A stretch of 35,406 nucleotides of DNA from a bacterium (GTDB lineage: Bacteria; Elusimicrobiota; Elusimicrobia; Elusimicrobiales; UBA9959). The notes under the pieces are model-generated. The model ran no database searches, had not been told where the DNA came from, and worked only from the letters and a program-made list of their open reading frames with translations. Made by a program: the position numbers and the translations under genes. This document shows, piece by piece, positions 11,865 through 30,612 of the stretch (the stretch's first letter is position 1; every line of letters begins with the position of its first letter). The stretch lies in contig JAJZOZ010000009.1 in assembly GCA_021811405.1 (NCBI GenBank), positions 1 to 35,406 on the forward strand, given 5' to 3'.

Positions 11865-12794
11865 CTAGCGCCCGAGTATCCGGTCCGCTATCGCGGCCGG
11901 GTCGGTGAACAGCGGGCAGAGCTCCTCGGACTTGTAGTAGACGTCCTTCTTGTAAAGCCCGGCGCAGATCCTCCTCAGCGTGCAGACGGCGCAGCGCTCC
12001 CCCTTGCCGTAGCTCCAGTCCTCCTGCACGATAAGCTCCTTCTCGTCGAGGAAATACGTGAGCCGGTTCTCTCCCTTCACTATCTTCCTGGTCTCGGTGG
12101 AGCAGTGGGCGAACTCGGCCATGAAGCAGAGCGGCACCCGCTCCACGCGGAACGTGCGCCCGCTGCCGGAGAGAAAGCGCATCGCGGCGGCCAGCGAGGC
12201 CTCGAAGCCGGCCAGCGTGGGTATGGTGTCCGGGAACTCCACCACGCGCTCCATACCCGGGTCCATGTTGTTGAAGACGAAATGCGAGATGAACGGGTAC
12301 TTAGAGCAGAGGAAGCGGACGGCCAGGTGCAGGTGGCCGGAGTTGTAGCGGTTGATGACGGTGTTGACGTTGACGGAGACCCCCAGCCTGCCCGCGTTCC
12401 CGAGGGTCTTGAAGAGGTTGGCCAGCGAGCCCTTGGTCCTGGAGAGGTGCTCCTGCAGCGCGGGCACGTGGGAATGTATGGAGACGTGCAGGTGCCTGAG
12501 CCCGGCGCCGCGCAGCCTGGAGAAATACCTGAAGTCGGCGGTGCGCTGGCCGTTGGTGACTATCCTGGGCTCCATGCCCAGCGTCCTCGCGTAGGCTATG
12601 AAGTCCGGCAGCTTCGGGTGCAGCGTGGGCTCGCCTCCGGTGAAGATTATGCCGGAGGCTTTGCGCTTCGCGTAGTCGCGCATCATCGCGCCGGCCTTCT
12701 CGGCGCTGATCACGCTGCCGTTGGAGGGATTGGAGCAGAACCGGCAGTTCTGGTTGCATTCCCTGGTCAGCTGAAGGTAGTATAGCTTCGCCAT
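11865..12794 (-). CDS. Radical SAM protein
   Basis: MAKLYYLQLTRECNQNCRFCSNPS; IIFTGGEPTLHPKLPDFI; VTNGQ; C-terminal CAVCTLRRICAGLYKK. ATG at 12794. Confidence 0.9.
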   Translation of the reverse strand: MAKLYYLQLTRECNQNCRFCSNPSNGSVISAEKAGAMMRDYAKRKASGIIFTGGEPTLHPKLPDFIAYARTLGMEPRIVTNGQRTADFRYFSRLRGAGLRHLHVSIHSHVPALQEHLSRTKGSLANLFKTLGNAGRLGVSVNVNTVINRYNSGHLHLAVRFLCSKYPFISHFVFNNMDPGMERVVEFPDTIPTLAGFEASLAAAMRFLSGSGRTFRVERVPLCFMAEFAHCSTETRKIVKGENRLTYFLDEKELIVQEDWSYGKGERCAVCTLRRICAGLYKKDVYYKSEELCPLFTDPAAIADRILGR

Positions 12795-12796
12795 GG

Positions 12797-13711
12797 TTAT
12801 AAAGCTCCGAGACCGCTGACGCCGTGTATCTCCAGGTATTCCGGCCAGACCCCGCCGCAGTACGCCCTGGCCCGGCAGCCGGAGCAGGGCGGCGGGAAGA
12901 CCTTCCCGGCCTCGTACCGGCGGCCGGTCCTGCGCAGCGCGGTCTCCACGCACCTCTCCGCGCGCCTGTGCCAGCCCCCGACGCAGAGCGGCAGGCCGCA
13001 GACCGGGTTGTTCACCGTTATCCCGCTCCTCTCCGCCCGGGAGAGCGCGGCCTCCACGAAGGGGGACAGCGCCGCGTAATCGGGCACAAGGCGGGGGTCG
13101 GACTTGGCGCGCCCCCGGGGCTGCACCACCGAGAGCGAGACCGTCCTTACCGCCGGGAAGCGCTTCGCGACGAAAGCCATGTACCCGGCCGCGCCGCGGT
13201 AATTGCGCGAGCACAGCACCGGGTTCAGTATGACCTCCAGCCCGCAGGCCAGCAGGTTGTCTATCCCCTTCAGGCAGAGCGCGTGCGAGCCGCGCACCCC
13301 GGTTATCCCGTCGTGCACGCGGGCCGAATGGCTGTGCAGCGAAACGAAGGCGCTGGTGGCCCCGGCCGAGGCCGCGGCGGCGGCCAGCCGCCGGTCCGCG
13401 AAGCGGACCGCGTTGGTCTGCACGTCCACCCTGGCCGCTTTCTTCGAGCGGTAAAGCTTTATCAGCGCCGGCAGCCCCTCGTAGAGCCCGGGCTCCCCGC
13501 CGCTGATCGAGATCCGCGCGCCGGGCCTGACCCCGGCCAGCAGCGCCGCCCTCATCGCGGCGCGCAGGACGCCGTCGTCGCGGCGCCGCTCCTCCGGCTG
13601 GCATTCCACGTTGCAGAACACGCAGTTCTCGTTGCACGCGTAGCCGAGCCTGACCAGCTCGTACGGGATATCCTCCCTCGGGTCCCCGCCTTTCCCGGCC
13701 TTAGAGCGCAT
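12797..13711 (-). CDS. Radical SAM protein with C-terminal auxiliary Cys motif
   Basis: VRLGYACNENCVFCNVE; ISISGGEPGLYEGLPAL; SLHSHSARVHDGITGVRGS; CSGCRARAYCGGVWPEYLEIHG. Confidence 0.9.
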   Translation of the reverse strand: MRSKAGKGGDPREDIPYELVRLGYACNENCVFCNVECQPEERRRDDGVLRAAMRAALLAGVRPGARISISGGEPGLYEGLPALIKLYRSKKAARVDVQTNAVRFADRRLAAAAASAGATSAFVSLHSHSARVHDGITGVRGSHALCLKGIDNLLACGLEVILNPVLCSRNYRGAAGYMAFVAKRFPAVRTVSLSVVQPRGRAKSDPRLVPDYAALSPFVEAALSRAERSGITVNNPVCGLPLCVGGWHRRAERCVETALRRTGRRYEAGKVFPPPCSGCRARAYCGGVWPEYLEIHGVSGLGAL

Positions 13712-14585
13712 GGAACTCCCCGTCCCCGTAGGTCTCTAGATATCTGGCGTACACGCCGCCGCAGACGGAAAGCTTCGCGCAGGCGCGGCAGCAGCGCAGC
13801 GCTTTTTTTTCGCGGTGGCCGTCCACGCAGCCGCCGCGGCGCTTCAGCATCTCGGTGCGCCGCATAGCGAACTCGCAGGCGCCCTCCGGCGCGCGCGGCA
13901 GGGCCGCGCAGAGCGGCACGTCCCAGAGGCGGAGGTTCTCCGGCCAGCCGCGCTCCGGGGCCAGCTCTTCCACCAGCCGGGAATACCTGACCGACAGCTT
14001 CTTCCAGTCCTTCAGCGCCCGGCCGAAAGGCAGCAGGCCGTGGAAGACGGCGTTCTTCAGCCCGCGGAGCGAGAGGAAGAAGTCCCTGAGCTCCGCCAGG
14101 CCGCCGATATTGAGCGCGTTCACGGTGGCGTTCACCGAGACCTGCACGCGGGAACCCTTGGGCCGCAGCGCCAGCAGGTTGGACAGGCCGCGCACGGTCT
14201 GCGCCCAGCTCCCTGGCACGCCGGTTATCGCGTCGTGCACTTCCGGCCTCGCCCCGTGCAGCGAGACGATGACCTCGCTGGCCCCGGAGGAGAGCAGTCT
14301 GGAGCAGTAATCCTTGTAGGCCAGCATCCTGCCGTTGGTTATCACGGAGACGCCGCTGCAGCCGAGCCGGGCCGCCTCCGCTATCAGGGCCGGCAGGTCC
14401 GGGTTCAGCGTGGGTTCGCCGGAGGTGAAGACCACCCGCCGGCCTTTCGCGGCGGCCGGCAGCCCCTTCACGGCGCCGCCGCCGCGGCGGCGGCCGCTCC
14501 AGGAAACGTCGGTGCAGAAGACGCAGTTGTTGTTGCACTCCCCGGAGGAGGCCGCGTACAGCGCTTTTCCGGCCGGTTTCGTCAT
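13701..14585 (-). CDS. Radical SAM protein with C-terminal auxiliary Cys motif
   Basis: MTKPAGKALYAASSGECNNNCVFCTD; VVFTSGEPTLNPDLPALI; SLHGARPEVHDAITGVPGSW; CRACAKLSVCGGVYARYLETYGDGEF. ATG at 14585. Confidence 0.9.
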   Translation of the reverse strand: MTKPAGKALYAASSGECNNNCVFCTDVSWSGRRRGGGAVKGLPAAAKGRRVVFTSGEPTLNPDLPALIAEAARLGCSGVSVITNGRMLAYKDYCSRLLSSGASEVIVSLHGARPEVHDAITGVPGSWAQTVRGLSNLLALRPKGSRVQVSVNATVNALNIGGLAELRDFFLSLRGLKNAVFHGLLPFGRALKDWKKLSVRYSRLVEELAPERGWPENLRLWDVPLCAALPRAPEGACEFAMRRTEMLKRRGGCVDGHREKKALRCCRACAKLSVCGGVYARYLETYGDGEFHAL

Positions 14586-15871
14586 GCGCTCCTCGCGGCG
14601 TTGAACATACGCTGCACCAGGTTCACCGCCCCGGCGAAGCCCAGGAAAGGCTCCGGCCGCAGCGCGTGGTAGCGGTAGGACGGGAAGCCCAGGTCCATGC
14701 CCGGCAGCCCCAGGAAGGCGGAGCGGCGGCCGACGCTGCTGGACACCAGCAGGTCGCAATGCCCGCCGGAGAACAGCCCCTCCACGGCCCGGGCGTAGGT
14801 CCCCGCCGGGAAATCCCTCAATACCGGCCTCCCCGGGAACGAGGCTTCGGCGGAGGCCCATTTCCCGCCGGAGCAGGTCAGGAAGACGCCGGCCACGCCC
14901 ATGCCCAGCTCCGCTGCGAAAGCGCAGAAGGCCCTGCCCAGGTACGGGTCCCCGGTGAAGCAGAGGCGCCTGCCGGCCAGCGCGCCGCCCACGGCAGCGC
15001 GCGCCGGCGAATGGGCGGCGGAGAGCTCGGCCGCTATCAGGGCGTCCGCCTTCGCCGCCGGCGTCCCGGCCGCGCAGGCCGCGGCCTTCAGCCAGGCGGC
15101 CGAGGCGGCCAGTCCCAGCGGCAGCTCCAGCTCGAGCAGTTTAGCCCCCGTCCTGCGCGCCAGCGTGGCGGCCGCCCCGCGCGCGTAAGGCAGCGAGATT
15201 ATCAGGCCGGCCTTCTCCGCGTTTTTCAAAGAGGCGTGATCTCCGCCGCCGGGCCACGCGCAGACCAGCTCCACGCCGGCCAGCGCCAGCATGCGCCGCA
15301 GCTCGGCTATGTTGCCGGTCTGGTCGCCCTCGTTGCGGTCCATGAAATGTCCTACTACGGCGGCCCTGCCGCGGCGCCCGGCGCCTTCTCTCAGCGGGAT
15401 GTCGGCGGCCAGCCTCTCCAGCGCCAGCGCGTAGCCGTCCAGGTAGTCGAGGTCCAGCGCGTTGGCGGCGACGCTCACCACCCTGGTGCCTTTTCGCCCG
15501 GTCAGGGAGGCCGCCAGCTTCCCGTAGTCCCGGCCGGTGAGCGTCATCACGGGCAGGGAGGAGAGCAGCACCGCGCCGGCGCGGCCGCACAGCGCGCCGG
15601 CCAGGGCCTCCGCGCCGGAGCTGTCGCCGGCTATTATCTCCCCGGAGTGGGAGCGGGTATGCAGCACGCGGCCGTCGCCGCGGCAGTCGAGCAGCGTGGA
15701 GAACAGGTCGTGCGAGCCGTGCACGCACTCGGCCTTGCGGGTCACGCAGTCCGTGCCGTCCACCACGGCGTAAGCGTCCGAGACGGCGTTGACCGCCAGG
15801 TAAAGGCCCGTCAGGAAGGACGGCGTGCAGCTCTCGCCCCGGTCCGGGGCTTCAGTTCTTTTTTCTGCCAT
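14582..15871 (-). CDS. Nitrogenase component 1-like protein (NifD/NifK/BchB/CfbD superfamily), set A
   Basis: Collinear with 27614..28885: PSFLTGLYLAVNAVSDAYAVVDGTDC / PAVYPYLLGAYACVNAVPGVTMLVDGPKC; VELVCAWPGGGDHASLKNAEKAGLIISLPYARGAAATLARRTG; GFPSYRYHALRPEPFLGFAGAVNLVQRMFNA. Overlaps the NifH-fusion CDS by 20 bp. Confidence 0.75.
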   Translation of the reverse strand: MAEKRTEAPDRGESCTPSFLTGLYLAVNAVSDAYAVVDGTDCVTRKAECVHGSHDLFSTLLDCRGDGRVLHTRSHSGEIIAGDSSGAEALAGALCGRAGAVLLSSLPVMTLTGRDYGKLAASLTGRKGTRVVSVAANALDLDYLDGYALALERLAADIPLREGAGRRGRAAVVGHFMDRNEGDQTGNIAELRRMLALAGVELVCAWPGGGDHASLKNAEKAGLIISLPYARGAAATLARRTGAKLLELELPLGLAASAAWLKAAACAAGTPAAKADALIAAELSAAHSPARAAVGGALAGRRLCFTGDPYLGRAFCAFAAELGMGVAGVFLTCSGGKWASAEASFPGRPVLRDFPAGTYARAVEGLFSGGHCDLLVSSSVGRRSAFLGLPGMDLGFPSYRYHALRPEPFLGFAGAVNLVQRMFNAARSA

Positions 15872-18071
15872 AGCTCGCGAAATCCGCCCCGCAGACCGCC
15901 AGGATGGTCTCCAGCGTCCTGCAGGCCCCGGCGAAGCCGGGCCTGAACATGTCCAGCGAGACCTGCGCCTTGCCGGCGTCGGAGACCCGGTAATCGCAGT
16001 TGAAATCGCTCCAGACGGCGGAGATGCCGGGCGCCGCCAGCCGGCGCCGCAGTTCGGCCTCGGTCGAGAAAGCCGAAGTCCTGATGCCGAGGGCGGAGAT
16101 CCGGCCCCGGAAACGGCCGAGGCTTTTCGCCTCGGGGGCGTAGACCAGCAGGTCCAGCCCGAAGCCGGCCTCGGCCAGGAAGCCGGCCGGCGGTATGCCG
16201 GCGGAGCGGGCCGGCACGAAGACCCGGTCCAGGTCGGCCTCGCCGGCCACGAAAGCTATCCTCTTGCCGGCAGCGCGCGCCTTCAGCGCGGCCCATTCGC
16301 CGGCCCTGGCCGCCATGGCCTTCCGCGCGGCTTCCCGAGCGGCCTTCTCCCGGCCCGCCAGCGCGGCGGCCTCCAGCAGCCAGGCCGCGGTGGCGGGGAA
16401 GCCGTAGGGCGAAGGCGGGCGCCTGAAAGACTTCTTCCAGCGCCCGCTGAAAGCGGCCTCCAGCCTGTCGTAGATGGACGAATCGCTCAGCAGGGCGCGG
16501 CCGGCCGACCTGAGGGCCTCCAGCGACTCCCCGTCGTATTCCGGCAGCATCCAGCGGGCCTTTACGCCCGCCGCGGCCAGTATGCCGTCCAGCTCGCGCA
16601 GCCCGGACCCGCCGTAGCCCAGCAGCAGCGCCGCGCCGGCGGGCAGGCGCGCGGGCTTCCGGCCGCCGCCCTTCGCGTACGCGCGCAGGAAGCCCATCAG
16701 TTCGCCGGGCACCGAGCAGCCGTCCAGGCAGGTGGAGCTGATCACCACCGGCACGCCGCTGGCCTTCTCGGCTTCCGCGGCCAGCTTCTGCACGTCCTCG
16801 CCCATCGCGTAGGGGACGCAGCCGTTCGTCATGAAGATGTAGTCGGGCCCGCCGCGGCCCAGGCCGGCGGCTATCTCGGCCACGCGGGAGCCGCTGCCCA
16901 TTATCACTTCCCGCGTGCCCAACGCGCTGGAGCTCCTGGAGGAGCCCTCCTCGCGGCGCAGCTCGCTGCCCGGCAGCAGACTGGCCGGGCCGCGCAGGAA
17001 AGGCACCTTCTCGCTCTCCTCCAGCCGCTCCTGGCCGTAGGCGCATTCCCTGTCCTCGTGGGCCAGGAAGGCCTGCCGGCCGGTATAGCGGACCAGGCCG
17101 GTGCCGGCGAAGACGCCCTCGGAGAAGAAGCGGCGCCAGCCGCCGCCGTCCGGCGGGGAGAGCTTGCGCGCGGGAGAGGAGACGGGGAAGGAGCCGGCCC
17201 CCGCCCCGGCCGCGGGGCAGGCCGCCGGAGCGGCGGGAGGCGGCGCCGCCGCCGCGGGCTTCTTCCGCCCCCGCCCGGAGAGCAGCGGCAGCAGTATCCT
17301 GCCGTCCACCGGGCGCGGCAGCCCGCGCGGCGGGTCGCCGGCGTCGAGGGCGGCCTTGATCTTCCTGACCGCGGCGGCGAAAGGCGAGCGCGGGGCCACG
17401 CGCACCACCGCGGCGCCGGCGGCCTCGGCCTCCCGGACGGCCGGGTCCGAAGGGCAGCGGGCCAGTATGCCCGCCTTGATCAGCGAGGCGAACTTGTCCA
17501 CCGCGCCTCCGCGGCCGCCGTCGGCCCCGTTGGCCACCAGCCCCATCAGGCCGGCGCCGCTGCCGGCGTGCACGGTCATGGCCCTGGCGATGTTGTTGGC
17601 GGCGTAAAGCGACATCAGGTCCTCTGAGACCACTATCAGCACCTTCCGCCCGAAACCTTTGCGCAGCGGCACCGCGAAGCCGCCGCAGACTATGTCGCCC
17701 AGCACGTCGAAGACCACCGCGTCGTAATCCGCGGCCACCTTCTCGCGGCCGGACTCCAGCAGCTCGAAGGTCTTCAGCAGGCCCATGCCGGCGCAGCCCT
17801 CTCCCGGCGCCGGGCCTCCGGCCTCCAGGCAGTCCACGCCCCTGCCGGTCCTGTAGATCAGGTCCTCCAGCGCCGGGCTGCCGCCGCGCAGCGCCTCCAC
17901 CACGGTGGGGATGCCCTCGCCGCCGGTCAGCAGCAGGGCGGAATCGCTCTTCGGGTCGCAGCCGACGTGCAGCACGCGCTTGCCCTCCAGCGCGTAGAGC
18001 TCGCTGAGGTTGGCGGCTATCGTGGACTTGCCTATGCCGCCCTTGCCGAGGATGACTATGCGCTCAGCCAT
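15852..18071 (-). CDS. NifH-like ATPase fused to nitrogenase component 1-like domain, set A
   Basis: N-terminus: VILGKGGIGKSTIAANLSELY (P-loop), GCDPKSDS, CAGMG, DVLGDIVCGGFAVPLR (both NifH cluster Cys), AANNIARAM. Ala/Pro-rich linker KKPAAAAPPPAAPAACPAAGAGAG. C-terminus: ECAYG, DYIFMTNGCVPYAMGEDVQKLAAEAEKASGVPVVISSTCLDG and a component-1-like tail. Confidence 0.85.
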   Translation of the reverse strand: MAERIVILGKGGIGKSTIAANLSELYALEGKRVLHVGCDPKSDSALLLTGGEGIPTVVEALRGGSPALEDLIYRTGRGVDCLEAGGPAPGEGCAGMGLLKTFELLESGREKVAADYDAVVFDVLGDIVCGGFAVPLRKGFGRKVLIVVSEDLMSLYAANNIARAMTVHAGSGAGLMGLVANGADGGRGGAVDKFASLIKAGILARCPSDPAVREAEAAGAAVVRVAPRSPFAAAVRKIKAALDAGDPPRGLPRPVDGRILLPLLSGRGRKKPAAAAPPPAAPAACPAAGAGAGSFPVSSPARKLSPPDGGGWRRFFSEGVFAGTGLVRYTGRQAFLAHEDRECAYGQERLEESEKVPFLRGPASLLPGSELRREEGSSRSSSALGTREVIMGSGSRVAEIAAGLGRGGPDYIFMTNGCVPYAMGEDVQKLAAEAEKASGVPVVISSTCLDGCSVPGELMGFLRAYAKGGGRKPARLPAGAALLLGYGGSGLRELDGILAAAGVKARWMLPEYDGESLEALRSAGRALLSDSSIYDRLEAAFSGRWKKSFRRPPSPYGFPATAAWLLEAAALAGREKAAREAARKAMAARAGEWAALKARAAGKRIAFVAGEADLDRVFVPARSAGIPPAGFLAEAGFGLDLLVYAPEAKSLGRFRGRISALGIRTSAFSTEAELRRRLAAPGISAVWSDFNCDYRVSDAGKAQVSLDMFRPGFAGACRTLETILAVCGADFASYGRKKN

Positions 18072-19089
18072 GCGCAGCCCCCTCCGCCGCCGGCCGGCCG
18101 CGCAGTATCCGCGCCGCCGCGGCCGCGGCGACCGGGCGCAGCTCGCCGTCCCCGAACCTGTCCAGGTAGGCCTTGAAGACCCCGGCGCAGCGGTCCGCCA
18201 GCGCGCAGCCCAGGCAGCGCACGGTCCTGGTCCGCTTCAGCGGCGGGACCGCGCTCTTCTTCACCGAGAGCACGTTCTCCTTCAGGTAGGAGCGCCCGCG
18301 CTCCAGCACGAGGCGCGGCGAGAAGAGCAGGTCGTTGGAGAAAGGGGCCAGCGGGCCCAGCGCGCAGAAAGGGGCGCCGGAGACCACGGGCCTGGCGCCG
18401 TTGGCCCGTATCACGCCCGCGGCCGCCCGCGCGGCGCGGGCGAATTCCGGCAGCCGGACCGTCAGCCCGCCGTAGGAGGAGCGCACGCTGCCCCACGGTA
18501 TCAGCTGCGAAAGCATGTAGACGCCCGGACGCCCGCGGGAGAAGACGTACTTCGCTATGCCGGCGGCCTTCCGGGCGTTGAGCGAGCAGATCACGGTATG
18601 GCACATGAAAAGCTTCAGGCGGCCGTGGCGCCCGACGTTCCCGAAGACCCGCTCCACGGCCTCGAAGGCCGAGGGCAGCCTGGTCACCGCGCGCGCCAGC
18701 TCCGGGCCGTCCCAGTGCACCGACAGGCAGAGCTCGTCGATATCCGGCAGCAGCGCGGCGGCAGCGGCCGGGTCCGCCAGGCCGGTGCCGTCGGTGGTGA
18801 CCTGCACCGAGTAGCCCAGCAGCCTGGCCACCCGCAGTATGCGGCCGAACTGCGGGTGCACGGTGGGCTCCCCGCCCAGCAGCGTCAGGTGCCGGGCTCC
18901 GCCGCTCCTGAGCCTCTTCATGATCGCGCAGGCCTCGGCCAGCGGCATGAAGCCGCCCCCGGAGCGCAGGTTGCGCGCCTCGCAGCAGAAGACGCAGCGG
19001 CGGCGGCAGACCTTGGAGATCCGGAGCTCGGCCCGGTCCCCGGCGGCCCCGAAGGCGGCCCCGGCGCTCAGTAGGTCCTTTCCGTGCAT
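18064..19089 (-). CDS. Radical SAM protein with C-terminal auxiliary Cys motif
   Basis: Start MHGKDLLSAGAAF (ATG 19089). LRISKVCRRRCVFCCEAR; LTLLGGEPTVHPQFGRIL; CLGCALADRCAGVFKAYLDRFGDGEL. Confidence 0.88.
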   Translation of the reverse strand: MHGKDLLSAGAAFGAAGDRAELRISKVCRRRCVFCCEARNLRSGGGFMPLAEACAIMKRLRSGGARHLTLLGGEPTVHPQFGRILRVARLLGYSVQVTTDGTGLADPAAAAALLPDIDELCLSVHWDGPELARAVTRLPSAFEAVERVFGNVGRHGRLKLFMCHTVICSLNARKAAGIAKYVFSRGRPGVYMLSQLIPWGSVRSSYGGLTVRLPEFARAARAAAGVIRANGARPVVSGAPFCALGPLAPFSNDLLFSPRLVLERGRSYLKENVLSVKKSAVPPLKRTRTVRCLGCALADRCAGVFKAYLDRFGDGELRPVAAAAAARILRGRPAAEGAAHG

Positions 19090-19799
19090 ATGTTGTACTT
19101 GACGTAGTTCGGCGCCCGGTCCTTGCGCACCCGGCTGTCCACGGCGCGCTGCTTGCGGGGCAGGGCCCCGTCGGGCCTGAGCGCGGCGTAGTCCACGTGG
19201 GTGTCCGTCTCGTTCTCCTTGAGGTCCCAGACCGCGCATTTCAGTCCCAGCGCCATCATGCCGGAGACGGTCTCCCGGATCCGGCCCTGGTTGGCCTTCA
19301 GGCGCAGCGTGTGCATCTCTATCTTCGTCCCGGGGAAGGACCTGATGTTCCCGATGGCCTTCAGCAGAGCGGCGTAGCTGCCCTTCTTCCTGGTCACGGC
19401 GTCGTGCGTCGCGGCGTCCGGCCCGTAGACCGGCAGCAGGAAGGCGTTGACCCCGGCCTTCACCAGGGTCTCCACCAGCCTGCGGCCGCGCAGCTTGACG
19501 CCGTTCGACATCAGCTCTATATAGGTGAACCCTTCCTTCACCCCCATCCGGACCACCGACTCCAGCAGCCAGGCCGGGGCCATCGTCGGCTCGTCGCCGC
19601 CGAGGCAGAGGCGCCTGACCCCGCGCCGGCGGAGCACCCGCATCAGCGCGCGGAAGCGGATCAGCACCTCGCGCCACCGCTCGTCGGTGAAGGCGAAGGC
19701 CGTCCTGTGCGGGTGCCTGTTGCGCTGGCAGAAGACGCAGTCGATGTCGCATCCGAAAGGGAACGCGAGCAGCAGCTTGTCCTCCTTCCTCGGGCTCAT
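19068..19799 (-). CDS. Short radical SAM protein lacking C-terminal Cys module
   Basis: LAFPFGCDIDCVFCQRNRHPH; LCLGGDEPTMAPAWLL; LLPVYGPDAATHDAVTRKKGSY; ends at 243 aa without CX2CX5C. Confidence 0.88.
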   Translation of the reverse strand: MSPRKEDKLLLAFPFGCDIDCVFCQRNRHPHRTAFAFTDERWREVLIRFRALMRVLRRRGVRRLCLGGDEPTMAPAWLLESVVRMGVKEGFTYIELMSNGVKLRGRRLVETLVKAGVNAFLLPVYGPDAATHDAVTRKKGSYAALLKAIGNIRSFPGTKIEMHTLRLKANQGRIRETVSGMMALGLKCAVWDLKENETDTHVDYAALRPDGALPRKQRAVDSRVRKDRAPNYVKYNICTERTY

Positions 19800-20782
19800 G
19801 CCGGCTTCGCCTCCCTCACCGGGCGGAAGAAGGCGGCGTGCCCGGGGAACGCCTCGAGGTACTTCCTGAATATGCCGCCGCAGGAACGCCGCAGCGGACA
19901 GGGGCGGCAGGTCTCCAGGTACACCCGCCGGCGCGTCGGGCGCAGCGAGACCGTCTCCTTCAGGCCGGCGCGCCCGCCGGGCAGCGCGGCCCGCTCCACG
20001 GTAAGCCGGGGGGAGTAATAGAGGTCGTTGGAAAGGTCGTAATGCCCGCCCAGCGCGCAGGCCGGCACGCCGAAGAAGCGCAGCGTCACGCCGAACAGCT
20101 CGGCCTGCTCCCGCAGCGCGCCTATGCGGGGGCCTATCGCGGTGAGGTCCGGCGCCAGCGCGGCGTAATCCGCGCAGGCCCCGCCTTCGGGGGCCGGGTT
20201 GGAGATCAGGTAATGCCTGACCAGTCCGGTGCCGGCGACGCGGCGCAGGATGTCCGAGACCCGCATGAAATTCTTCCTCATGGCGACGGTGTTAACCATC
20301 AGGAACGGCCGGCCTCGGCCCGCCTTGCCCAGGTTGTCGAGCGCGGCCATAACGTCGTCGAAGCTGCCTTTCCTGCCTGTCAACGCGTCGTGCAGCGCCG
20401 CGGTAGGGCCGTGGCAGGAGAGCATGGCCTCGTCCAGCAGCGGCGCGGCGCGCCGCGCGAAGGCCGGGTCCGCGAAAGCGGCCCCGTTGGTGGTGACGGC
20501 GGTCCTGTAGCCCAGGGCCCTGGCGGCGCCGATGGCGGCCGGAAGGGCGGCGCAGAGCGAAGGCTCGCCGCCGGTAAAGGTCACGTGGGAGAAGCCGGCC
20601 CGCCGCTTCTCCCTCAGGATGCCGGCTATCTCCGCGCCTGAAAGGTCCAGAGTCCGGAACCGCCGCAGCCTGTTGCGCTCGCTGCAGAACAGGCAGCTGT
20701 TCCCGCAGGTGTAGGAAACGTGTATCTCCAGCCGCTCCGGGGCCGCTCTCTTCGCGTCGGTCATCCGGACGTCCCCGCTCAT
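19796..20782 (-). CDS. Radical SAM protein with C-terminal auxiliary Cys motif
   Basis: IHVSYTCGNSCLFCSERN; VTFTGGEPSLCAALP; SCHGPTAALHDALTGRKGSF; CRPCPLRRSCGGIFRKYLEAF. ATGA overlap with the 20779 stop. Confidence 0.9.
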   Translation of the reverse strand: MSGDVRMTDAKRAAPERLEIHVSYTCGNSCLFCSERNRLRRFRTLDLSGAEIAGILREKRRAGFSHVTFTGGEPSLCAALPAAIGAARALGYRTAVTTNGAAFADPAFARRAAPLLDEAMLSCHGPTAALHDALTGRKGSFDDVMAALDNLGKAGRGRPFLMVNTVAMRKNFMRVSDILRRVAGTGLVRHYLISNPAPEGGACADYAALAPDLTAIGPRIGALREQAELFGVTLRFFGVPACALGGHYDLSNDLYYSPRLTVERAALPGGRAGLKETVSLRPTRRRVYLETCRPCPLRRSCGGIFRKYLEAFPGHAAFFRPVREAKPA

Positions 20783-22861: not shown

Positions 22862-23840
22862 CTTCAGCCTTCTGCTTTACCATGTCGGCCATTATCTTGT
22901 GCCGGAACGAGCTGGTGCAGTAGCCGGTGGCGAGTTTCTTGGCCAGAGGAGCGCAGACCGACGGGTCCCTGGACTCCAGCACGCGCGGCAGCCACTTGTC
23001 GTCGGGGATGGCGTCCCCTATCACCAGCGCGGCGCTGAGCTGGCATTCCTTCTTCCTGGGGCCGCTCAGCCTGCTGCAGGCCGCCCGCCCGCGTATGAAC
23101 AGGAAGTTGGATTCGCAGCCCGGGGGCAGGCCGAGCGACCTGCACTCCGGGGTCCGCTTCCGGGCTATGGAGTCGGAGATGACGCGGCAGAAGTCGGGGC
23201 TGGGCCGGCCGTCCCTGAACGCGTTGTTTATGAACTTCTCGCATTTGCCGTCGTTGATGGTCTTGCGCATCGCGGAGTACAGGAACTCGTAGTAGTCCGC
23301 GGCGTAGCAGACCCGGTTCAGGTTGTCCTGGACGCAGTCGAGCTGCCCGCCGCTTATCAGCCGGCAGACCCCGTAATCCAGGAACAGGTTGAGGATGGTA
23401 TCGTCCTCAGGCATGTTGCTGTTGGTGTTGAAGAAGAACTTGAAGTTCTTGTCGAAATGCCGGATGATCGCGTCCGGGTTGTCCGAGAACGCCTTCACGC
23501 AGTCGGCGTCGGCCGCGTTCACGGGGACGTCCTCCGGCTGGGAATAATACCCGCCGTAAGAGCCCTCGTACTGGCCGCCCTGCGGGATGTTGCTCCGGGT
23601 CTCCGTGGAGACCGGGCTGCTCAGCGCCGCGGCGTCCGGCGGCAGCGCCTGGCCGACCTCCTGCTGCGCCTCCGACGGCGAAGGGGGCGGGACCGGCTGC
23701 TCCAGCCCCATGTTGGCGGCCTTCTTGTCCGTCACCATCTTCAGGGCCAGCAGCACGCCCATCAGCGCCACCAGCAGCGCCACCAGCAGCTTCGGGGACA
23801 TCGCCCCGCGCCTGTATCCCTTCCTCATGGCGCTCACCAT
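22791..23840 (-). CDS. Membrane-anchored Cys-rich protein
   Basis: N-terminal TM (MSPKLLVALLVALMGVLLALKMV), Pro-rich stalk, Cys-rich domain ending LESRDPSVCAPLAKKLATGYC, similar to the C-terminus of 2880..4241. Confidence 0.78.
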   Translation of the reverse strand: MVSAMRKGYRRGAMSPKLLVALLVALMGVLLALKMVTDKKAANMGLEQPVPPPSPSEAQQEVGQALPPDAAALSSPVSTETRSNIPQGGQYEGSYGGYYSQPEDVPVNAADADCVKAFSDNPDAIIRHFDKNFKFFFNTNSNMPEDDTILNLFLDYGVCRLISGGQLDCVQDNLNRVCYAADYYEFLYSAMRKTINDGKCEKFINNAFRDGRPSPDFCRVISDSIARKRTPECRSLGLPPGCESNFLFIRGRAACSRLSGPRKKECQLSAALVIGDAIPDDKWLPRVLESRDPSVCAPLAKKLATGYCTSSFRHKIMADMVKQKAEDDKRMGVQQQSKQPKGKQAEKGQ

Positions 23841-24130
23841 TGCCCGTGGCTGCCGTGCGAGCCGTGGCTGCCGTGCGAGCCGTGGCTGCTGTGCGAGCCG
23901 TGCGAGCCGTGCGAGGCGTGGCTCACGTGGCCCGACGCGTTGCCGCTGCTGTGGAAGTAATTGGAATGGGTCGCCGCGTCGGCGTGCTCGGTCACGGCCC
24001 CGACGGCCGTGGCCACCAGGCCCAGGACGACCGCGGCCTTGACCACGTCGCTCTTGACTATCTTTCCTTCCTCGCTGGAGAGGAAGCGAGAAAGGTCCCC
24101 CGACAGCTTCTTTTTCTGTTTTCCAGCCAT
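23834..24130 (-). CDS. His-Xaa-Ser repeat peptide, HxsA-like putative RiPP precursor
   Basis: 98 aa: leader-like SGDLSRFLSSEEGKIVKSDVVKAAVVLGL and C-terminal HVSHASHGSHGSHSSHGSHGSHGSHGSHGQW. Adjacent to the HxsB-like maturase. Confidence 0.8.
   Translation of the reverse strand: MAGKQKKKLSGDLSRFLSSEEGKIVKSDVVKAAVVLGLVATAVGAVTEHADAATHSNYFHSSGNASGHVSHASHGSHGSHSSHGSHGSHGSHGSHGQW
23846..23930 (-). repeat. Tandem repeat encoding (His-Gly-Ser)n; 18-bp higher-order unit GTGGCTGCCGTGCGAGCC (+ strand), degrading to 9-bp units
   Basis: Perfect copies 23846-23863 and 23864-23881; third copy 23882-23899 with one mismatch; then GTGCGAGCC-type 9-mers. Confidence 0.85.
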
Positions 24131-24149: not shown

Positions 24150-25622
24150 CTAGACGTGTATCCCGGCCACTCCGGCGCTGCTGCCGGCCCAGGACTCGAA
24201 CAGCTTCTTGACTTTCGGCTCGCGCAGGCGCGCGAACAGGTAATCCATGACCCCGGTGTAGATCTCGCACCGGAAGTTGGGATGGTGCATGTACAGGTCG
24301 TTGTGCTCGGAATAGTTGAAGACCGGGCAGACGCCGCAGTAAGGCTTGTAGACGCAGGAGGAGCAGAGCGTCTGTATGTCCGTCACCGAGGCGGTGACCA
24401 CGCATTTCACGGTCGGGCTGGCCGCCAGGTCCGCGTAGGCCTCCTTCTTCAGGTCGCCCATGCAGAAGGCGTCGGTGCCTTCGGCGGCGAGCATGCGGCC
24501 CTCGTCGCAGGTGAACACCCTGCCGTCGTAGTCGTACGCGATCTGGCCTATCCCGGCCCCGCACGGCGACCGCAGGTCCATGAAGTTCGGGTCGGTATCG
24601 GTCAGGATCTTGCGCAGGAATATCCTGGCGGTGTGCTCGACCAGCGAGGCCTTCTTCTTCAGGTTCAGGTCTATGACGTAGTCCAGCGCCTTCGTGTAGA
24701 ACTCTATGTACTCCCGGGCGGTGTAGCCTATCCGGCCCCAGGCCTTCTTGGCCGCGCCGAACGGGTTGAGGAAGCGCAGGAAGATGGAGCGGGCGCCGAT
24801 GCGGACGTATTCGTCCACTATGTCCTTGTGCCGCCCGAGGGACTGCTTCGTCACGGTCAGCAGAGCGTCGGGCCCGTTCTTGCTCCGGGCCGTGCGCTTC
24901 TTTATGATCTTCCACCACTTCAGCACCTCGGCGTGGCTGCCGCCGCCGGTGGCTACGCGGTTCTTGTTGTGCAGGTCGGCCGGACCGTCCAGCGAGGTGC
25001 AGATGGCCACGTTGTGCTTGAGCAGGAAATCCAGGCGCTCCGCCGTCATGGCGGAAAGGTTGGTCACCAGGCTCAGGCCCACCTTCTTGTCGGTGGTCTT
25101 AAGGCGCTCGGCGGCCTCCTTCACCATGAACTCCAGCACCGGCCAGTTGAGCAGCGGCTCGCCGCCCTGGAACTCTATGGTGACCGACGGCGCCGGCGAC
25201 GCGAAGACGGAATCCAGCACCTTCAGCGCGGTCTCCTTCGTCATGTCCAGCCCGCGGCCGCCCTTCTTAGAAGAGGCGTGGCAGTAGACGCAGTCGTGGT
25301 TGCAGCGGCGGGTCAGCACCGCTATGTGCAGGGCCGGGCCGGAGAAGAGGAAGTGGTTCTTCTCGTGCCACCTGTCGGCCAGGCCGGCGAAGTCCATGTA
25401 GTCCCGCACGAAGCCCTTGCGGGAGAGGTCCTTGTACTCCGCGGACTTCTTGTCCAGCGTGCCGGCGGCCAGCTTCGAGAAGACCTTCTCCGTTAGAAAA
25501 GCGTACTCGCCTATGTCGTTGGTGACCAGGTATTCGTCCCCGGACCGCTTGAAGCGGAGGAAGCCGGTCCTCTGGGGGTTGAACTCAATTTCCTTTTTTT
25601 GTTTTCTTGGCATTTTTGGCAT
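24150..25622 (-). CDS. hxsB: His-Xaa-Ser system radical SAM maturase HxsB-like
   Basis: GFLRFKRSGDEYLVTNDIGEYAFLTEKVFSKL N-terminal domain; IAVLTRRCNHDCVYCHASSKKGG; VTIEFQGGEPLLNWPVLEF; TSLDGPADLHNKNR; SPASM Cys run CDEGR...CSSCVYKPYCGVCP. Confidence 0.85.
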   Translation of the reverse strand: MPKMPRKQKKEIEFNPQRTGFLRFKRSGDEYLVTNDIGEYAFLTEKVFSKLAAGTLDKKSAEYKDLSRKGFVRDYMDFAGLADRWHEKNHFLFSGPALHIAVLTRRCNHDCVYCHASSKKGGRGLDMTKETALKVLDSVFASPAPSVTIEFQGGEPLLNWPVLEFMVKEAAERLKTTDKKVGLSLVTNLSAMTAERLDFLLKHNVAICTSLDGPADLHNKNRVATGGGSHAEVLKWWKIIKKRTARSKNGPDALLTVTKQSLGRHKDIVDEYVRIGARSIFLRFLNPFGAAKKAWGRIGYTAREYIEFYTKALDYVIDLNLKKKASLVEHTARIFLRKILTDTDPNFMDLRSPCGAGIGQIAYDYDGRVFTCDEGRMLAAEGTDAFCMGDLKKEAYADLAASPTVKCVVTASVTDIQTLCSSCVYKPYCGVCPVFNYSEHNDLYMHHPNFRCEIYTGVMDYLFARLREPKVKKLFESWAGSSAGVAGIHV

Positions 25623-26049
25623 TTTTGCTCTTTTCCCACGGCACGGCTATGCCCAGAGAATCGTCCTTGTAGTCGCCGCTCTCCGCTTCCTTCAGCAGCT
25701 TCTCGATCTCCTTCTCCAGCTCCGCGTCCAGCACCGGCGCCGCGGCGGCCGGCTCGGCGGTCTTCGGCTGGGCCGAGAGCAGCGCCCTGACCACTATCCT
25801 TTCGCGCAGGACCTGGTTGACGGAGGAGACCTTCAGGCGGAAGGCGTGGTGCAGCAGCTCGTTGCGGAACTCGCCCTCCAGGTCGCGGCCCTCCGGGAAC
25901 TTGCCGTTCTTCGGCTCCAGCTCCACGGAGAGCGAACCGCCCTTGTCCTTGCCCAGCTTCACGTAGGCGTCCTTGGAGAACGTGTACGCCGCGGCGTAGA
26001 CGCTCTCAAGGGGATATACCGAAAGATCGATCTTAACCTGTTTTTTCAT
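25585..26049 (-). CDS. hxsD: His-Xaa-Ser system protein HxsD-like
   Basis: IDLSVYPLESVYAAAYTFSKDAYVKLGKDKGGSLSVELEPK...EFRNELLHHAFRLKVSSVNQVLRERIV matches the HxsD pattern; overlaps hxsB. Confidence 0.75.
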   Translation of the reverse strand: MKKQVKIDLSVYPLESVYAAAYTFSKDAYVKLGKDKGGSLSVELEPKNGKFPEGRDLEGEFRNELLHHAFRLKVSSVNQVLRERIVVRALLSAQPKTAEPAAAAPVLDAELEKEIEKLLKEAESGDYKDDSLGIAVPWEKSKNAKNAKKTKKGN

Positions 26050-26068: not shown

Positions 26069-26632
26069 TTATTTCAGCCTGCAGCAAAGCATTTCGCCGG
26101 AGCTCGGGATGGACCCCGGGGGGCCCATGGACTGCATCTGGCTGCCCACCCTGGCCGCCACGACGGCGGTCTTGGTGCCGATGCAGGTGGAGACGGTGCC
26201 GTAGGAGTAGGTCTGCCAGGAGCAGTCGAGCAGGCCGGGGGGGTCGGCCCAACTGGAAAGGCCGCTCCCGTCCGAGGTAAGCACCCTGCCGTTGGACTGG
26301 GAGCCGTTCTGCAGCTCGAAGCTGCCGACCACGTGGAGCTTGGCCGCCGGGGCGCCGGTGCCTACTCCGACGTTGCCGCCGTCCCGGGCCAGTATGGTCT
26401 GGCTGGTGGTGAGTATGCTGACGTAGCCGCCGTAGGGCGCCGGGTAATACGTGGTGAGCGTCAGCGTTTCCGAGCCTATGAAGCCCGGGTGCCAGCAGAC
26501 GAACAGCCAGGCCAGCAGGCCCACGGCCGTCTTCCGGTGCGAAAGACCCAACCGGCTCAACCAGCCCGTCAGGCCGGGCCGATCAAGCCAGTCCGATGAG
26601 AACTTGATAACGATCTCGTTATTGTTCCTCAT
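26069..26632 (-). CDS. Anchored surface protein with tail-fibre-like motif
   Basis: TM segment KTAVGLLAWLFVCWHPGF followed by SETLTLTTYYPAPYGGY and NVGVGTGAPAAKLHVVG; four Cys in the C-terminal third. First gene after the putative promoter. Confidence 0.65.
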   Translation of the reverse strand: MRNNNEIVIKFSSDWLDRPGLTGWLSRLGLSHRKTAVGLLAWLFVCWHPGFIGSETLTLTTYYPAPYGGYVSILTTSQTILARDGGNVGVGTGAPAAKLHVVGSFELQNGSQSNGRVLTSDGSGLSSWADPPGLLDCSWQTYSYGTVSTCIGTKTAVVAARVGSQMQSMGPPGSIPSSGEMLCCRLK

Positions 26633-26769: not shown

Positions 26770-27624
26770 TCATTTCGGGGCGCGGCCGCGGCCGGCCGCG
26801 CGCGCCCTGGCGGCGAGCTCCAGCTTGAACTTGGCGAAGACGGCGTCCGACATCGGCCTGGGCCTGGGGCAGGACTTCAGGGCCAGCATCCGGCCCACCG
26901 CGGCCCTGACGGCGGCGGTGAAAGGCGCTCCGGGGCTGAACGCCGGCACCGGCTCCCCGGCGAAGTCCGCCGAAACGACGGCCGGGTCGTCCGGGAGGGC
27001 GCCGATCACGCGCGAGTTTATGGCCGAGGAGAAGAGCGCGAGCGGGGCGTGGTCGGCCTTCCGCACGCGGTTGACTATCAGCCCCCCCAGCGTCACGCCG
27101 TTGGCGGAGTAGCGCGCCACGGCCTTGGCTATGTTGTTGGCCGCCAGCATCGACATCAGGTCCACCCCCAGCACTATGAAGGCCCTGTCCGCGAAGCCCA
27201 TGCGCATCGGGGCGGCGAAGCCGCCGCAGACCACGTCGCCGAGCACGTCGTAGACCACGGAGTCGTAGCCGCGCCGCCGCACCAGGCCGCTCTCGTTCAG
27301 GTAATCCAGCAGCAGCGAGACGCCGCGGCCGGCGCAGCCGGTGCCGGGTTCCGGGCCGCCGGCCTCGACGCAGTCTATCCCGTATTCGTTGGACATTATC
27401 AGCCTGTCCTCGGAGACCTTCCCGGCGCAGTACAGCTCGGAGTAGGTGACCACCGGACGGTGCCCCATCAGCCCGGATGAGGAATCCTTCTTCGGGTCGC
27501 AGCCCACCCGCAGCACCTTATGGCCCCGGGCCGCCAGCTCGCAGCACACGGCGGAAGATATCGTGGATTTCCCGATCCCGCCCTTGCCGAAGAACACCCA
27601 GCGCAAAGCTTTCTCAGACGACAT
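26770..27624 (-). CDS. NifH-like ATPase (stand-alone), set B
   Basis: FFGKGGIGKSTISSAVCCELA, GCDPKKDSSS, CAGRG, DVLGDVVCGGFAAPMR, AANNIAKAV. Confidence 0.9.
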   Translation of the reverse strand: MSSEKALRWVFFGKGGIGKSTISSAVCCELAARGHKVLRVGCDPKKDSSSGLMGHRPVVTYSELYCAGKVSEDRLIMSNEYGIDCVEAGGPEPGTGCAGRGVSLLLDYLNESGLVRRRGYDSVVYDVLGDVVCGGFAAPMRMGFADRAFIVLGVDLMSMLAANNIAKAVARYSANGVTLGGLIVNRVRKADHAPLALFSSAINSRVIGALPDDPAVVSADFAGEPVPAFSPGAPFTAAVRAAVGRMLALKSCPRPRPMSDAVFAKFKLELAARARAAGRGRAPK

Positions 27625-28885
27625 ATGGAGGGTCCTTTCTGGCGGCCAGCACCGTGTTGGCCGCCTGCTCTATGAACCGCAGAAAACCGGAATACCCCAG
27701 GAAAGGGCTCTCTTCCAGGCAGTGCCGGTTGTAGACCGGGAAGCCGAACTCCAGATAGGCGCCGCCGACGTAGACGAAGAACGGCGAGAGATTGGACGAG
27801 ATCAGCAGGCCGCACTTCCCCGGGAACGACTCCTTTATAAGGCGCTTGAGGCCGGCGGCGCTGCCGGCCCGCCCGCCGGCCGCGCGCGAAGTATGAACGA
27901 CCTCCGCCGGCTCCACCCCGATATCCGACAGCACGGAGCGCAGGCCCGGCTCCAGCAGGGGGTCGATCACGCAGACGGCCCTGCCGCCTGAGAGGACCGC
28001 GCTCACGAGGCGCGCGCTGCGCCCGTATACCCTGGCCCTGGCCTCCTTTATCACCGCCGCCATTTCCGCGCAGCGGCCGGCGCAGCGGGCCGCCGCCGCC
28101 AGGAAAGCCCCGGTGCCGGCGAGCCCGAAGGGCAACGGCGCCCCGACGAAAGGAACTCCCATCCGCCGGGCCAGAACTTCGGCGGCCTTCAGCCCGTGCG
28201 GCAGCCCGATCACGGCCGAGGCGCCCGCTAGCTCGCGGGCCGAGCTCCGCAGCGAGCCCCCGCCCGGCCACACCGCCAGCTCCACCCCGGCCGCGGCCGC
28301 CAGCGACTCCAGTTCCCTGACGTTGCCGAGGCAGTCGTATTCCCTGCGGTACATCGGATTGCCCACCACCGCCACCTTCCGGGGGCGGCGAGCGGCCCGC
28401 CCGAGCGGCATTATGCCCGCCAGCGCCGCCAGCGCGTCGCCGTAGCCCGCCAGCCAGTCTCCGGAAAGGGAGCTGCCTGGCAGCGCGGAGAACGGCACCC
28501 CGGAAGAGGAGAAGAGCGGCCCGAGCGCCCGGGCGTAATCCAGGCCGGCCACGGCCGCGAACGGCATGGGCGCCAGCAGGCACGCCTCCGGGGACGAGGT
28601 CTCCAGCATCCTCCCGGCGCGCGCGACGATCCCGCTTTCGGGGTCCGCGGTCATCCGCTCCGGAGAGGTGCCGGTGCAGACGACCCTGTTGGGGGCGGAA
28701 TGTCCGAGCAGGTCGGAGAACAGGTCCCCGCTGCCGTAAAGGTACTCCGCCTTAGCCTCCGCGCATTTCGGGCCGTCAACCAGCATCGTGACCCCGGGCA
28801 CGGCGTTGACGCAGGCGTAGGCGCCGAGCAGGTAGGGGTAAACCGCCGGCTGGGAAAAATCCCCGGTCTCCATGTTTTTTTTCAT
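27614..28885 (-). CDS. Nitrogenase component 1-like protein, set B
   Basis: Real start MKKNMETGDFSQ (ATG 28885). Collinear with 14582..15871: VDGPKC, ELAVWPGGGSLRSSARELAGASAVIGLPHGLKAAEVLARRMG, FGFPVYNRHCLEESPFLGYSGFLRFIEQAANTV. Confidence 0.75.
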   Translation of the reverse strand: MKKNMETGDFSQPAVYPYLLGAYACVNAVPGVTMLVDGPKCAEAKAEYLYGSGDLFSDLLGHSAPNRVVCTGTSPERMTADPESGIVARAGRMLETSSPEACLLAPMPFAAVAGLDYARALGPLFSSSGVPFSALPGSSLSGDWLAGYGDALAALAGIMPLGRAARRPRKVAVVGNPMYRREYDCLGNVRELESLAAAAGVELAVWPGGGSLRSSARELAGASAVIGLPHGLKAAEVLARRMGVPFVGAPLPFGLAGTGAFLAAAARCAGRCAEMAAVIKEARARVYGRSARLVSAVLSGGRAVCVIDPLLEPGLRSVLSDIGVEPAEVVHTSRAAGGRAGSAAGLKRLIKESFPGKCGLLISSNLSPFFVYVGGAYLEFGFPVYNRHCLEESPFLGYSGFLRFIEQAANTVLAARKDPPYVV

Positions 28886-30612
28886 CCGAACAGCCCCGCG
28901 GACAGCTTGCGCGCCAGGATCTCGTAGCCGGCCAGGGCCCCGGAAACGCCCTGCCCCACGAGCTCCAGGTCCAGCGGCATCCTGCCGCGCTCCAGCGCCC
29001 TGTCGTCGAAACGGTACCCGGAGAAGACGCCGCGCTGCCTGCCCGAGCCGAGCGCGGCGTAAAGCGCGTCCTCCGTGCCGAAAATGCGCGCGGAGGAACC
29101 GGGGAAAGCCGCCCTGAGCGCGCGGAACATCGCGGCGCGGATCCCGGGCAGCGGGGGGCGCCTGGCCAGCAGGAAGAAATCCAGGCCAAGCCCCGCGTCC
29201 TCGCGCAGGGCCCTCAGCCTGGCCGAAGTCTCCAGCGGGGCCTCCGCCATGTCCGCGCCGGACAGGAACGAGGCCGCGGTTATATCCGCGCGCAAGCGCG
29301 GATCGCGGCAGCCGAGGGCCTGATGCAGTTCGCCTGCTTCCAGTACTACGGCGGCGCGGAGGCCGCGGAACGCGCGCCTGACGGCCGCCAGCCGGGCGGC
29401 GGCGCCCGGGCAGAGCAGGTCCGCGGGCAAGGCGCGGGCCGCGCGGACGCCGGCCGCGGCGGCCAGGCGGGCGGCCAGGCGGGACATCTGCGCCGGGCCG
29501 AAACACTCGTCGCCCAGCAGCGGCGCGACCCCTCCCAGCACGGACCTGACGGCGCCCGCGTTGCGCGCCGACGAGAATACCACCGCCACGGCGCCGCGGC
29601 CGTAGGACGGGGCCAGCGCGCGGGAATACTCCGGCAGGCAGAACGAGTTCACCGAAAGCCCCGCCGCCGCGCAAAGCGCGCGCAGCTCGGCGCGGAACCC
29701 GTCGTCCCCGGCGTTGAAGAAGTCCACCGAGCGCGGGCGCCCGGCCCCGCGTTTTTTGGCGCGGTCCCCGGGAAGAAAAGGCTGTTCCGCCCGCGAGACC
29801 GGCGTGGTAAGGGTCACGAAAGCGGCGCCGGCGGCACGCAGCCCGTCGGCCACGCCGCGCGTGTCCACCCCGCAGACCTGCGCCAGGCAGCCGGAATCCA
29901 GCACCACGCCGGCCTTCCCGCCGGCGGCCTTGCCGGCGCGCCCGGCGGCCTCCGCCAGGCCGGCCCAGCCGGTGAGCATCTCGCCGTCGCCGAGAGGATA
30001 GAAGAAGGTCCGTCCGGCCCGGTACCCCAGGTATTCGCCGCGCAGCGCGCCGCGGGACCTGTCGTACGGGTCCAGCGCATCCCCGGCGGGGGCGGCGTAG
30101 GAAAGGCAGAACGGTTCTATGTGGTTGGCCACGTCGAACCAGCACTCCTCGTCGCCGATCAGCAGCGAGGCGCTCCGGGAAGCGTCTACCGCGGCGGACA
30201 GGGAACGCCCGGAAAGCGGCGGGACCGACAGGAAGCCCCGGAAGAAGGCCCCCGGCACCGGAGCGAAATCGCTCAGCTCCGCCGCGGCCGCGCCGAACCG
30301 CCCGCGGCGTTCGAACTCGCCCGAGATACGCCGGAAGAGTTCTACTCCGAAAAGCCGGAAATCCACGCTCCTGCCGGCGGACAGGTCGCCGGACTCGTGG
30401 AACAGGCGCTCTTTCAGGCGGGCGCCCCCGGCGTCGCGTTCCAGGAAGACCAGCTGCCTGATATCCCCGGTCCGGTCCAGGAGCAGCGAGCCGTCGGCCA
30501 GCTGCCTGACGCAGCACGGGGCGGCCTCCCCGCCCGGGAAGGGCGGGAATTCGCGGAGCAGCTTCGCCAGCCGCGCGGCCGGCAGGACCCGGCAGAAGAC
30601 CAGCCTACGCAT
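28882..30612 (-). CDS. Nitrogenase component 1-like protein with extra N-terminal region, set B
   Basis: Start MRRLVFCRVLP (ATG 30612). LLIGDEECWFDVANHIEPF, YPLGDGEMLTGWAGLAEAAGRA, GVVLDSGCLAQVCGVDTRGVADGLRAAGAAFVTLTTPV parallels the fusion-protein component-1 half. ATGA overlap with 28885. Confidence 0.7.
   Translation of the reverse strand: MRRLVFCRVLPAARLAKLLREFPPFPGGEAAPCCVRQLADGSLLLDRTGDIRQLVFLERDAGGARLKERLFHESGDLSAGRSVDFRLFGVELFRRISGEFERRGRFGAAAAELSDFAPVPGAFFRGFLSVPPLSGRSLSAAVDASRSASLLIGDEECWFDVANHIEPFCLSYAAPAGDALDPYDRSRGALRGEYLGYRAGRTFFYPLGDGEMLTGWAGLAEAAGRAGKAAGGKAGVVLDSGCLAQVCGVDTRGVADGLRAAGAAFVTLTTPVSRAEQPFLPGDRAKKRGAGRPRSVDFFNAGDDGFRAELRALCAAAGLSVNSFCLPEYSRALAPSYGRGAVAVVFSSARNAGAVRSVLGGVAPLLGDECFGPAQMSRLAARLAAAAGVRAARALPADLLCPGAAARLAAVRRAFRGLRAAVVLEAGELHQALGCRDPRLRADITAASFLSGADMAEAPLETSARLRALREDAGLGLDFFLLARRPPLPGIRAAMFRALRAAFPGSSARIFGTEDALYAALGSGRQRGVFSGYRFDDRALERGRMPLDLELVGQGVSGALAGYEILARKLSAGLFG

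Follow-up and report, generated by a model that had tools for sequence, protein, structure and literature searches.

In nitrogenase, where two Fe-protein subunits serve each alpha-beta half, every cycle involves docking and departure of the Fe protein, and the influence of the two halves on each other is debated. DPOR (BchL-BchNB) also pairs an Fe protein with an alpha-beta reductase, the cluster of which rests on three Cys from N and an Asp from B. Negative cooperativity between the nitrogenase halves has been reported (PMC10207099), and besides the aspartate that holds the DPOR cluster together with Cys, Dos Santos et al. (2012, PMC3464626) described clades of unfused nitrogenase-like (NFL) proteins in which the NifD/E-like subunit has two conserved Cys and the NifK/N-like subunit one. 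The same work mentions fused NifH/NifE-like NFL proteins in Archaea, Firmicutes and Deltaproteobacteria, with the data not shown and the proteins left out of the tree, and PMC4153887 has an entry "fused nifH/nifE" under Ca. Methanomassiliicoccus intestinalis. Methylthio-alkane reductase, MarHDK (PDB 9fmg, 9d9u; PMC12552129), is made up of separate H, D and K proteins; all six P-cluster Cys are retained in MarD and MarK, as is Cys270, the ligand of [Fe8S9C]. Elusimicrobiota have a nitrogenase paralogue known as the group VI homologue (cited in PMC11257099 after Meheust et al. 2020). In the literature searched, we found no study of the fused NifH/component-1 architecture going beyond mention.

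The window, the whole 35,406-nucleotide stretch of DNA analysed here, comes from the same phylum and harbors on its (-) strand a single ATG-started frame of 739 aa (15852..18071; set A) that unites both kinds of component. As delineated with Pfam and AlphaFold, a NifH-like reductase domain (17277..18071, residues 1-265) is followed by an Ala/Pro-rich tether (17139..17276, residues 266-311) and a component-1 alpha domain (15852..17138, residues 312-739). Fer4_NifH (PF00142) matches residues 4-265 with an E value of 1.7e-65 and Oxidored_nitro residues 378-628 with 1.1e-18, confirming the preliminary description of a full NifH-like ATPase joined to a component-1-like domain in one uninterrupted frame. 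The P-loop GKGGIGKST, the switch residues and both cluster Cys (C93 and C129) listed there are all present, and they are invariant in 19 aligned fusions. The AlphaFold model (mean pLDDT 85, pTM 0.70) displays two confident domains flanking a disordered stretch at about residues 273-307, mostly with pLDDT < 50, in agreement with the proposed Ala/Pro-rich linker; within the alpha domain, confidence is lower around residues 350-372 and 449-452. The best Foldseek match of the NifH part is MarH (9fmg), and its fold resembles MarH and the nitrogenase Fe proteins. MarHDK also provides the best sequence match of the NifH part and of the alpha profile, which matches MarD most strongly and then NifE (E 8e-28); in contrast to the separate Mar proteins, H and alpha are fused in the window.

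Upstream, the fusion gene overlaps a radical SAM frame by 8 bases, and at its 3' end it overlaps by 20 bases the gene of a component-1 beta partner (14582..15871, (-), 429 aa), which is modeled with a confident component-1 fold (pLDDT 92; best matches NifK, AnfK and NifN). The presence of NifH-like and NifE-like domains in one ORF, their order and the downstream beta-type gene all agree with the fused NFL proteins of Dos Santos et al., a likeness by description, as PMC3464626 gives no sequences. A reading of the fusion as unprecedented does not hold, given that such proteins were noted in 2012. The fusion of the window differs from those in its Elusimicrobiota origin, its short linker, the loss of the CAGRG Arg, the accompanying Hxs cluster and, in genomes of its family, the frequent lack of any other NifH.

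The fusion is an old and genuine one: a single frame of 820-1212 aa encodes both NifH and component 1 in 16 of the 31 congener genomes, and a search of the phylum retrieved the fusion from further Elusimicrobiota genera and families. A scan of genome contigs yielded 79 NFL loci in Elusimicrobiota, Myxococcota and others, with 36 fused frames against about 25 loci with separate H, alpha and beta genes. Together with the adjoining beta partner, this bears out the idea of a natural, conserved tether between a NifH-like reductase and a component-1 subunit. One proteobacterial and one unclassified genome carry the fusion as well, and in GWA2_56_46 it stands in full synteny with the radical-SAM/Hxs block of the window, in the same gene order and without set B. 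The GWA2 and GWF2 genomes among the carriers of the fusion are metagenome-assembled and belong to Elusimicrobia.

The fused form is the sole NifH (every NifH match > 190 bits sits in a frame of at least 745 aa) in 10 of the 11 family genomes tested, some of them 96-100% complete. With no second NifH available in these 10 genomes, the function of the reductase must fall to the tethered domain. With mislabelled and long rows removed, a single origin of the fusions is not rejected by the beta tree (p-AU 0.61) or by the NifH tree (p-AU 0.30). With these rows kept, the NifH tree rejects it (p-AU 0.004), indicating that the origin test is sensitive to sampling. An independent fusion event in each clade is not supported by the values from the pruned trees.

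Comparison of the window with GWA2_56_46 offers a closer look at constraint along the gene. For codon positions 1/2/3, identity amounts to 77/83/52% over the NifH domain and 71/77/44% over alpha, indicating that purifying selection acts on both domains. The linker displays 31% residue identity at nearly equal length, and GC3 is 0.92-0.93 throughout NifH, linker and alpha. Such variability in sequence, with hardly any in length, is as expected of a tether. The distance from H to alpha is about 50 residues in these two proteins and 144-177 in most fusions of the family, where a middle region of roughly 110 aa takes the place of the short tether. This region matches the N-terminal region of split alpha proteins with an hhalign probability of 34% and an E value of 4e-4, which is only suggestive of the two being the same domain.

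The CAGRG motif reads CAGMG in the fusion and is kept as CAGRG in the stand-alone NifH-like protein of set B (26770..27624, (-)), both as first described. A reading of this Arg in terms of ADP-ribosylation gained no further support from the analysis. A link between loss of the Arg and the tether is not supported: 13 of the 36 fused NifH domains keep CAGRG, f7 and other fusions among them, and fusion as the cause of the loss is rejected. The Arg is kept in all 30 frames scored as not fused, and the 23 fused domains that have lost it all come from the window's family. The loss is hence a sublineage trait rather than a consequence of tethering. As this Arg also takes part in docking of the Fe protein, one may speculate that its loss suits a tethered partner. 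Set B further comprises a component-1 beta (27614..28885, (-), 423 aa) and a diverged component-1 alpha without Pfam hit (28882..30612, (-)), which was found by hhalign with the fusion alpha profile (probability 95.9, E 6e-9). With its genes arranged alpha-beta-H, set B is not what simply splitting the fusion would give, and this origin was rejected.

Conservation of Cys, counted over 39 alpha and 47 beta sequences, points at the type of cluster in component 1. Alpha Cys343 is kept in 36/36, alpha Cys418 in 39/39 and beta Cys42 in 47/47, and the C-terminal alpha Cys727 is present in 37/39. The fusion family thus follows the NFL pattern of two Cys in alpha and one in beta, which, at the level of sequence, is suggestive of a [4Fe-4S] cluster whose fourth ligand is not a Cys. 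The proposed enzyme resembles DPOR in having a cluster on three Cys and one other residue; however, all cluster Cys of DPOR come from N, and DPOR is not fused and serves the chlorophyll pathway. Only three of the usual six P-cluster Cys are conserved in the family, the equivalent of the FeMo-co ligand Cys275 is absent in 39/39 alpha homologues, and no NifB scored over the cut-off in 32 genomes (the window's own and 31 relatives). These observations rule out nitrogenase (NifHDK). A Mar-type cofactor is ruled out as well, as the ligands of the P-cluster and of [Fe8S9C] (MarD Cys270) are not conserved.

The genes around set A, likewise on the (-) strand, include HxsA4, a His-Xaa-Ser repeat precursor peptide of 98 aa found by motif scan (23834..24130; NCBIfam NF038313, 62.5 bits, cut-off 55), the radical SAM maturase HxsB (24150..25622; TIGR03978, 490.4 bits, cut-off 370) and HxsD (25585..26049; TIGR03976, 50.9 bits, cut-off 50). 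With these three components, common to Hxs systems, at their cut-offs, profile matches identify the cluster as a His-Xaa-Ser radical SAM system. HxsC-like radical SAM genes lie at 7093-8859, 8852-9706, 9703-10653, 11865-12794, 12797-13711 and 13701-14585 (-), and further radical SAM genes at 18064-19089, 19068-19799, 19796-20764, 20779-21909 and 21914-22861 (-). These are accompanied by a TYYPAPYG-motif protein that is syntenic in relatives (26069..26632, (-)) and by an open frame without NCBIfam match, a putative prepilin peptidase as read from its sequence (10650-11861, (-)). The fusion is flanked by about a dozen radical SAM genes. Unlike in described Hxs systems, the HxsC-like genes are many (about ten), and all those in the window stay below the HxsC cut-off (best HxsC 104.9 of 267.9 bits, HxsC4 130.3 of 500). 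To our knowledge, a nitrogenase-like component is not part of the described His-Xaa-Ser system.

In six further genomes of the family (G008, G018, G026, G092, G122 and G147), HXS-repeat genes and NFL genes share a contig, and in the Myxococcota loci L102 and L133 they lie near each other; a NifH-radical SAM fusion is encoded in locus L088. The background rate, taken from a whole-genome pattern search, is 34 of 35 family genomes with HXS repeats, with or without NFL, and 13 of 14 congeners without NFL. Several congener NFL pairs have no radical-SAM neighbors and are found amid housekeeping genes (e.g., L048 beside IF3/PheST). As HXS repeats are common without NFL and NFL pairs occur without radical SAM genes, the Hxs link is not obligate, and we infer that NFL is an optional partner of radical-SAM peptide chemistry.

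The conserved fusion, the intact ATPase and cluster residues, the loss of the FeMo-co ligand and the gene context all support reading the protein as part of an NFL reductase. With a confidence slightly above even, we regard the fusion as the reductase plus alpha chain of such an enzyme, of (H-alpha)2(beta)2 composition and most likely performing a reductive step in a radical-SAM pathway. The enzyme is probably an ATP-driven [4Fe-4S] reductase with a built-in 1:1 ratio of reductase to alpha, acting in a tailoring step of the Hxs or a related pathway. Two fusion chains and two beta chains would assemble into the tetramer, in which the two tethered NifH domains would pair into an Fe-protein dimer with a [4Fe-4S] cluster held between Cys93 and Cys129. 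Since the fusion fixes H to alpha at 1:1, only one such dimer is available per tetramer. In its MgATP-bound form, the dimer would dock on an alpha-beta half and pass electrons to a second Fe-S cluster at the alpha-beta interface, presumably of the [4Fe-4S] type and with alpha Cys343 and Cys418, beta Cys42 and a fourth residue as its ligands. The flexible linker would still allow docking and release of NifH, and, judging by the stoichiometry, the single dimer may serve one half at a time or alternate between halves. The pocket for substrate reduction would lack FeMo-co and [Fe8S9C], and the reaction would most likely be a step of a radical-SAM pathway, which in the window would be the His-Xaa-Ser (HxsA4/B/D/C-like) peptide system. 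A more specific proposal, in which the tethered NFL is the dedicated ATP-driven reductase of Hxs-type maturation, with no diffusion of free reductase and one docked dimer per tetramer, is put forward tentatively, with odds clearly against it.

The well-known NFL enzymes with simple clusters all act on tetrapyrroles, and the fusion could be a tetrapyrrole double-bond reductase in the manner of DPOR, COR or CfbCD. This has been proposed for the Elusimicrobiota group VI homologue, cited in PMC11257099 as potentially involved in tetrapyrrole modification. HemN-like radical SAM genes adjoin some NFL loci, and among NCBIfam families the NifH part matches CfbC best; this match is nonetheless far below cut-off (223.7 of 402 bits), and no DPOR, COR or CfbC equivalog cut-off is reached by the fusion (BchX 176.7 of 331, BchL 172 of 345, BchN 44.7 of 324 bits). 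Moreover, HemB (ALAD), matched by the same search in most control genomes, is present in the window's genome and G018 and was not found in the other nine of the 11 fusion-carrying family genomes, several of them 96-100% complete. The tetrapyrrole suggestion therefore fits the window's family poorly, and we consider it improbable.

An equally small chance is given to a scaffold or maturase that assembles or carries an Fe-S cofactor destined for set B or the many radical SAM enzymes, in the way NifEN serves NifDK. The strong match of the alpha profile to NifE and the two NFL sets in one cluster, recalling nifDKEN, speak for such a role, but the ligands for a large cluster are absent, NifB was not found in the genomes searched, and GWA2_56_46 carries the same cluster without set B. 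Flavodoxin or ferredoxin are the usual reductants of radical SAM enzymes, which counts against the fused pair being a dedicated low-potential electron source for the [4Fe-4S] clusters of its radical SAM neighbors instead of acting on a small substrate. The number of adjoining radical SAM genes and the NifH-radical SAM fusion of L088 would fit this role; the substrate-binding halves of alpha and beta would, however, be unnecessary for it, and some fused pairs have no radical SAM neighbors, leaving it quite unlikely. Finally, an artificial union of two genes, through misassembly or a frameshift, is rejected with near certainty, for although the source genome was assembled from a metagenome and is in fragments (234 contigs, 88% complete), dozens of independent assemblies carry the same fusion, GWA2_56_46 in full synteny, and the coding signature continues through the linker.

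The NFL fusion architecture itself was already known; the present analysis adds its spread in Elusimicrobiota, the existence of genomes in which all NifH is fused, the link to Hxs, the lineage-specific loss of the Arg and the variants in tether length. For itself, the fusion family argues against the published tetrapyrrole suggestion, and it links nitrogenase-like reductases to radical-SAM peptide chemistry. With its reductase attached 1:1 and forming the sole NifH of the genome, it lends itself as a test case provided by nature for the need of free dissociation and of two Fe-protein dimers.

Set B, the second nitrogenase-like (NFL) set of the window, comprises a split NifH, a beta gene and a very diverged alpha gene (26770-30612, minus strand). 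It lies in the interval between the genes for the TYYPAPYG-motif protein and PhoH, which in the family genome G147 holds a fused pair, a NifH-alpha fusion with a beta gene. Set B is absent from the relative GWA2_56_46.

The His-Xaa-Ser repeat peptide HxsA4 (23834-24130, minus strand) displays nine consecutive H-X-S triplets, and its gene is flanked by HxsB on one side and by a gene for a secreted-type protein (22791-23840) on the other. Among the radical SAM genes of the window, a 588-aa protein (7093-8859, minus strand) apparently consists of two radical SAM halves, with a Pfam match for the first half and none for the second. A 309-aa protein with radical SAM genes on both sides (5137-6066, minus strand) has no Pfam match.

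In relatives, G122 carries three fused NifH-alpha/beta pairs within a 40-kb stretch of contig C42 (loci L157 and L158) and an additional NifH inside a 1213-aa frame on contig C54. At L159 (G147, contig C40), five HemN-like radical SAM genes form an array next to a fused pair. Loci L085 and L098 each harbor two tandem NFL sets, one of which contains a long-branch NifH (L085:2468-3355, L098:1650-3380). At L088:1678-3672 (plus strand), a single 665-aa frame joins a NifH domain to an HxsC-like radical SAM domain.
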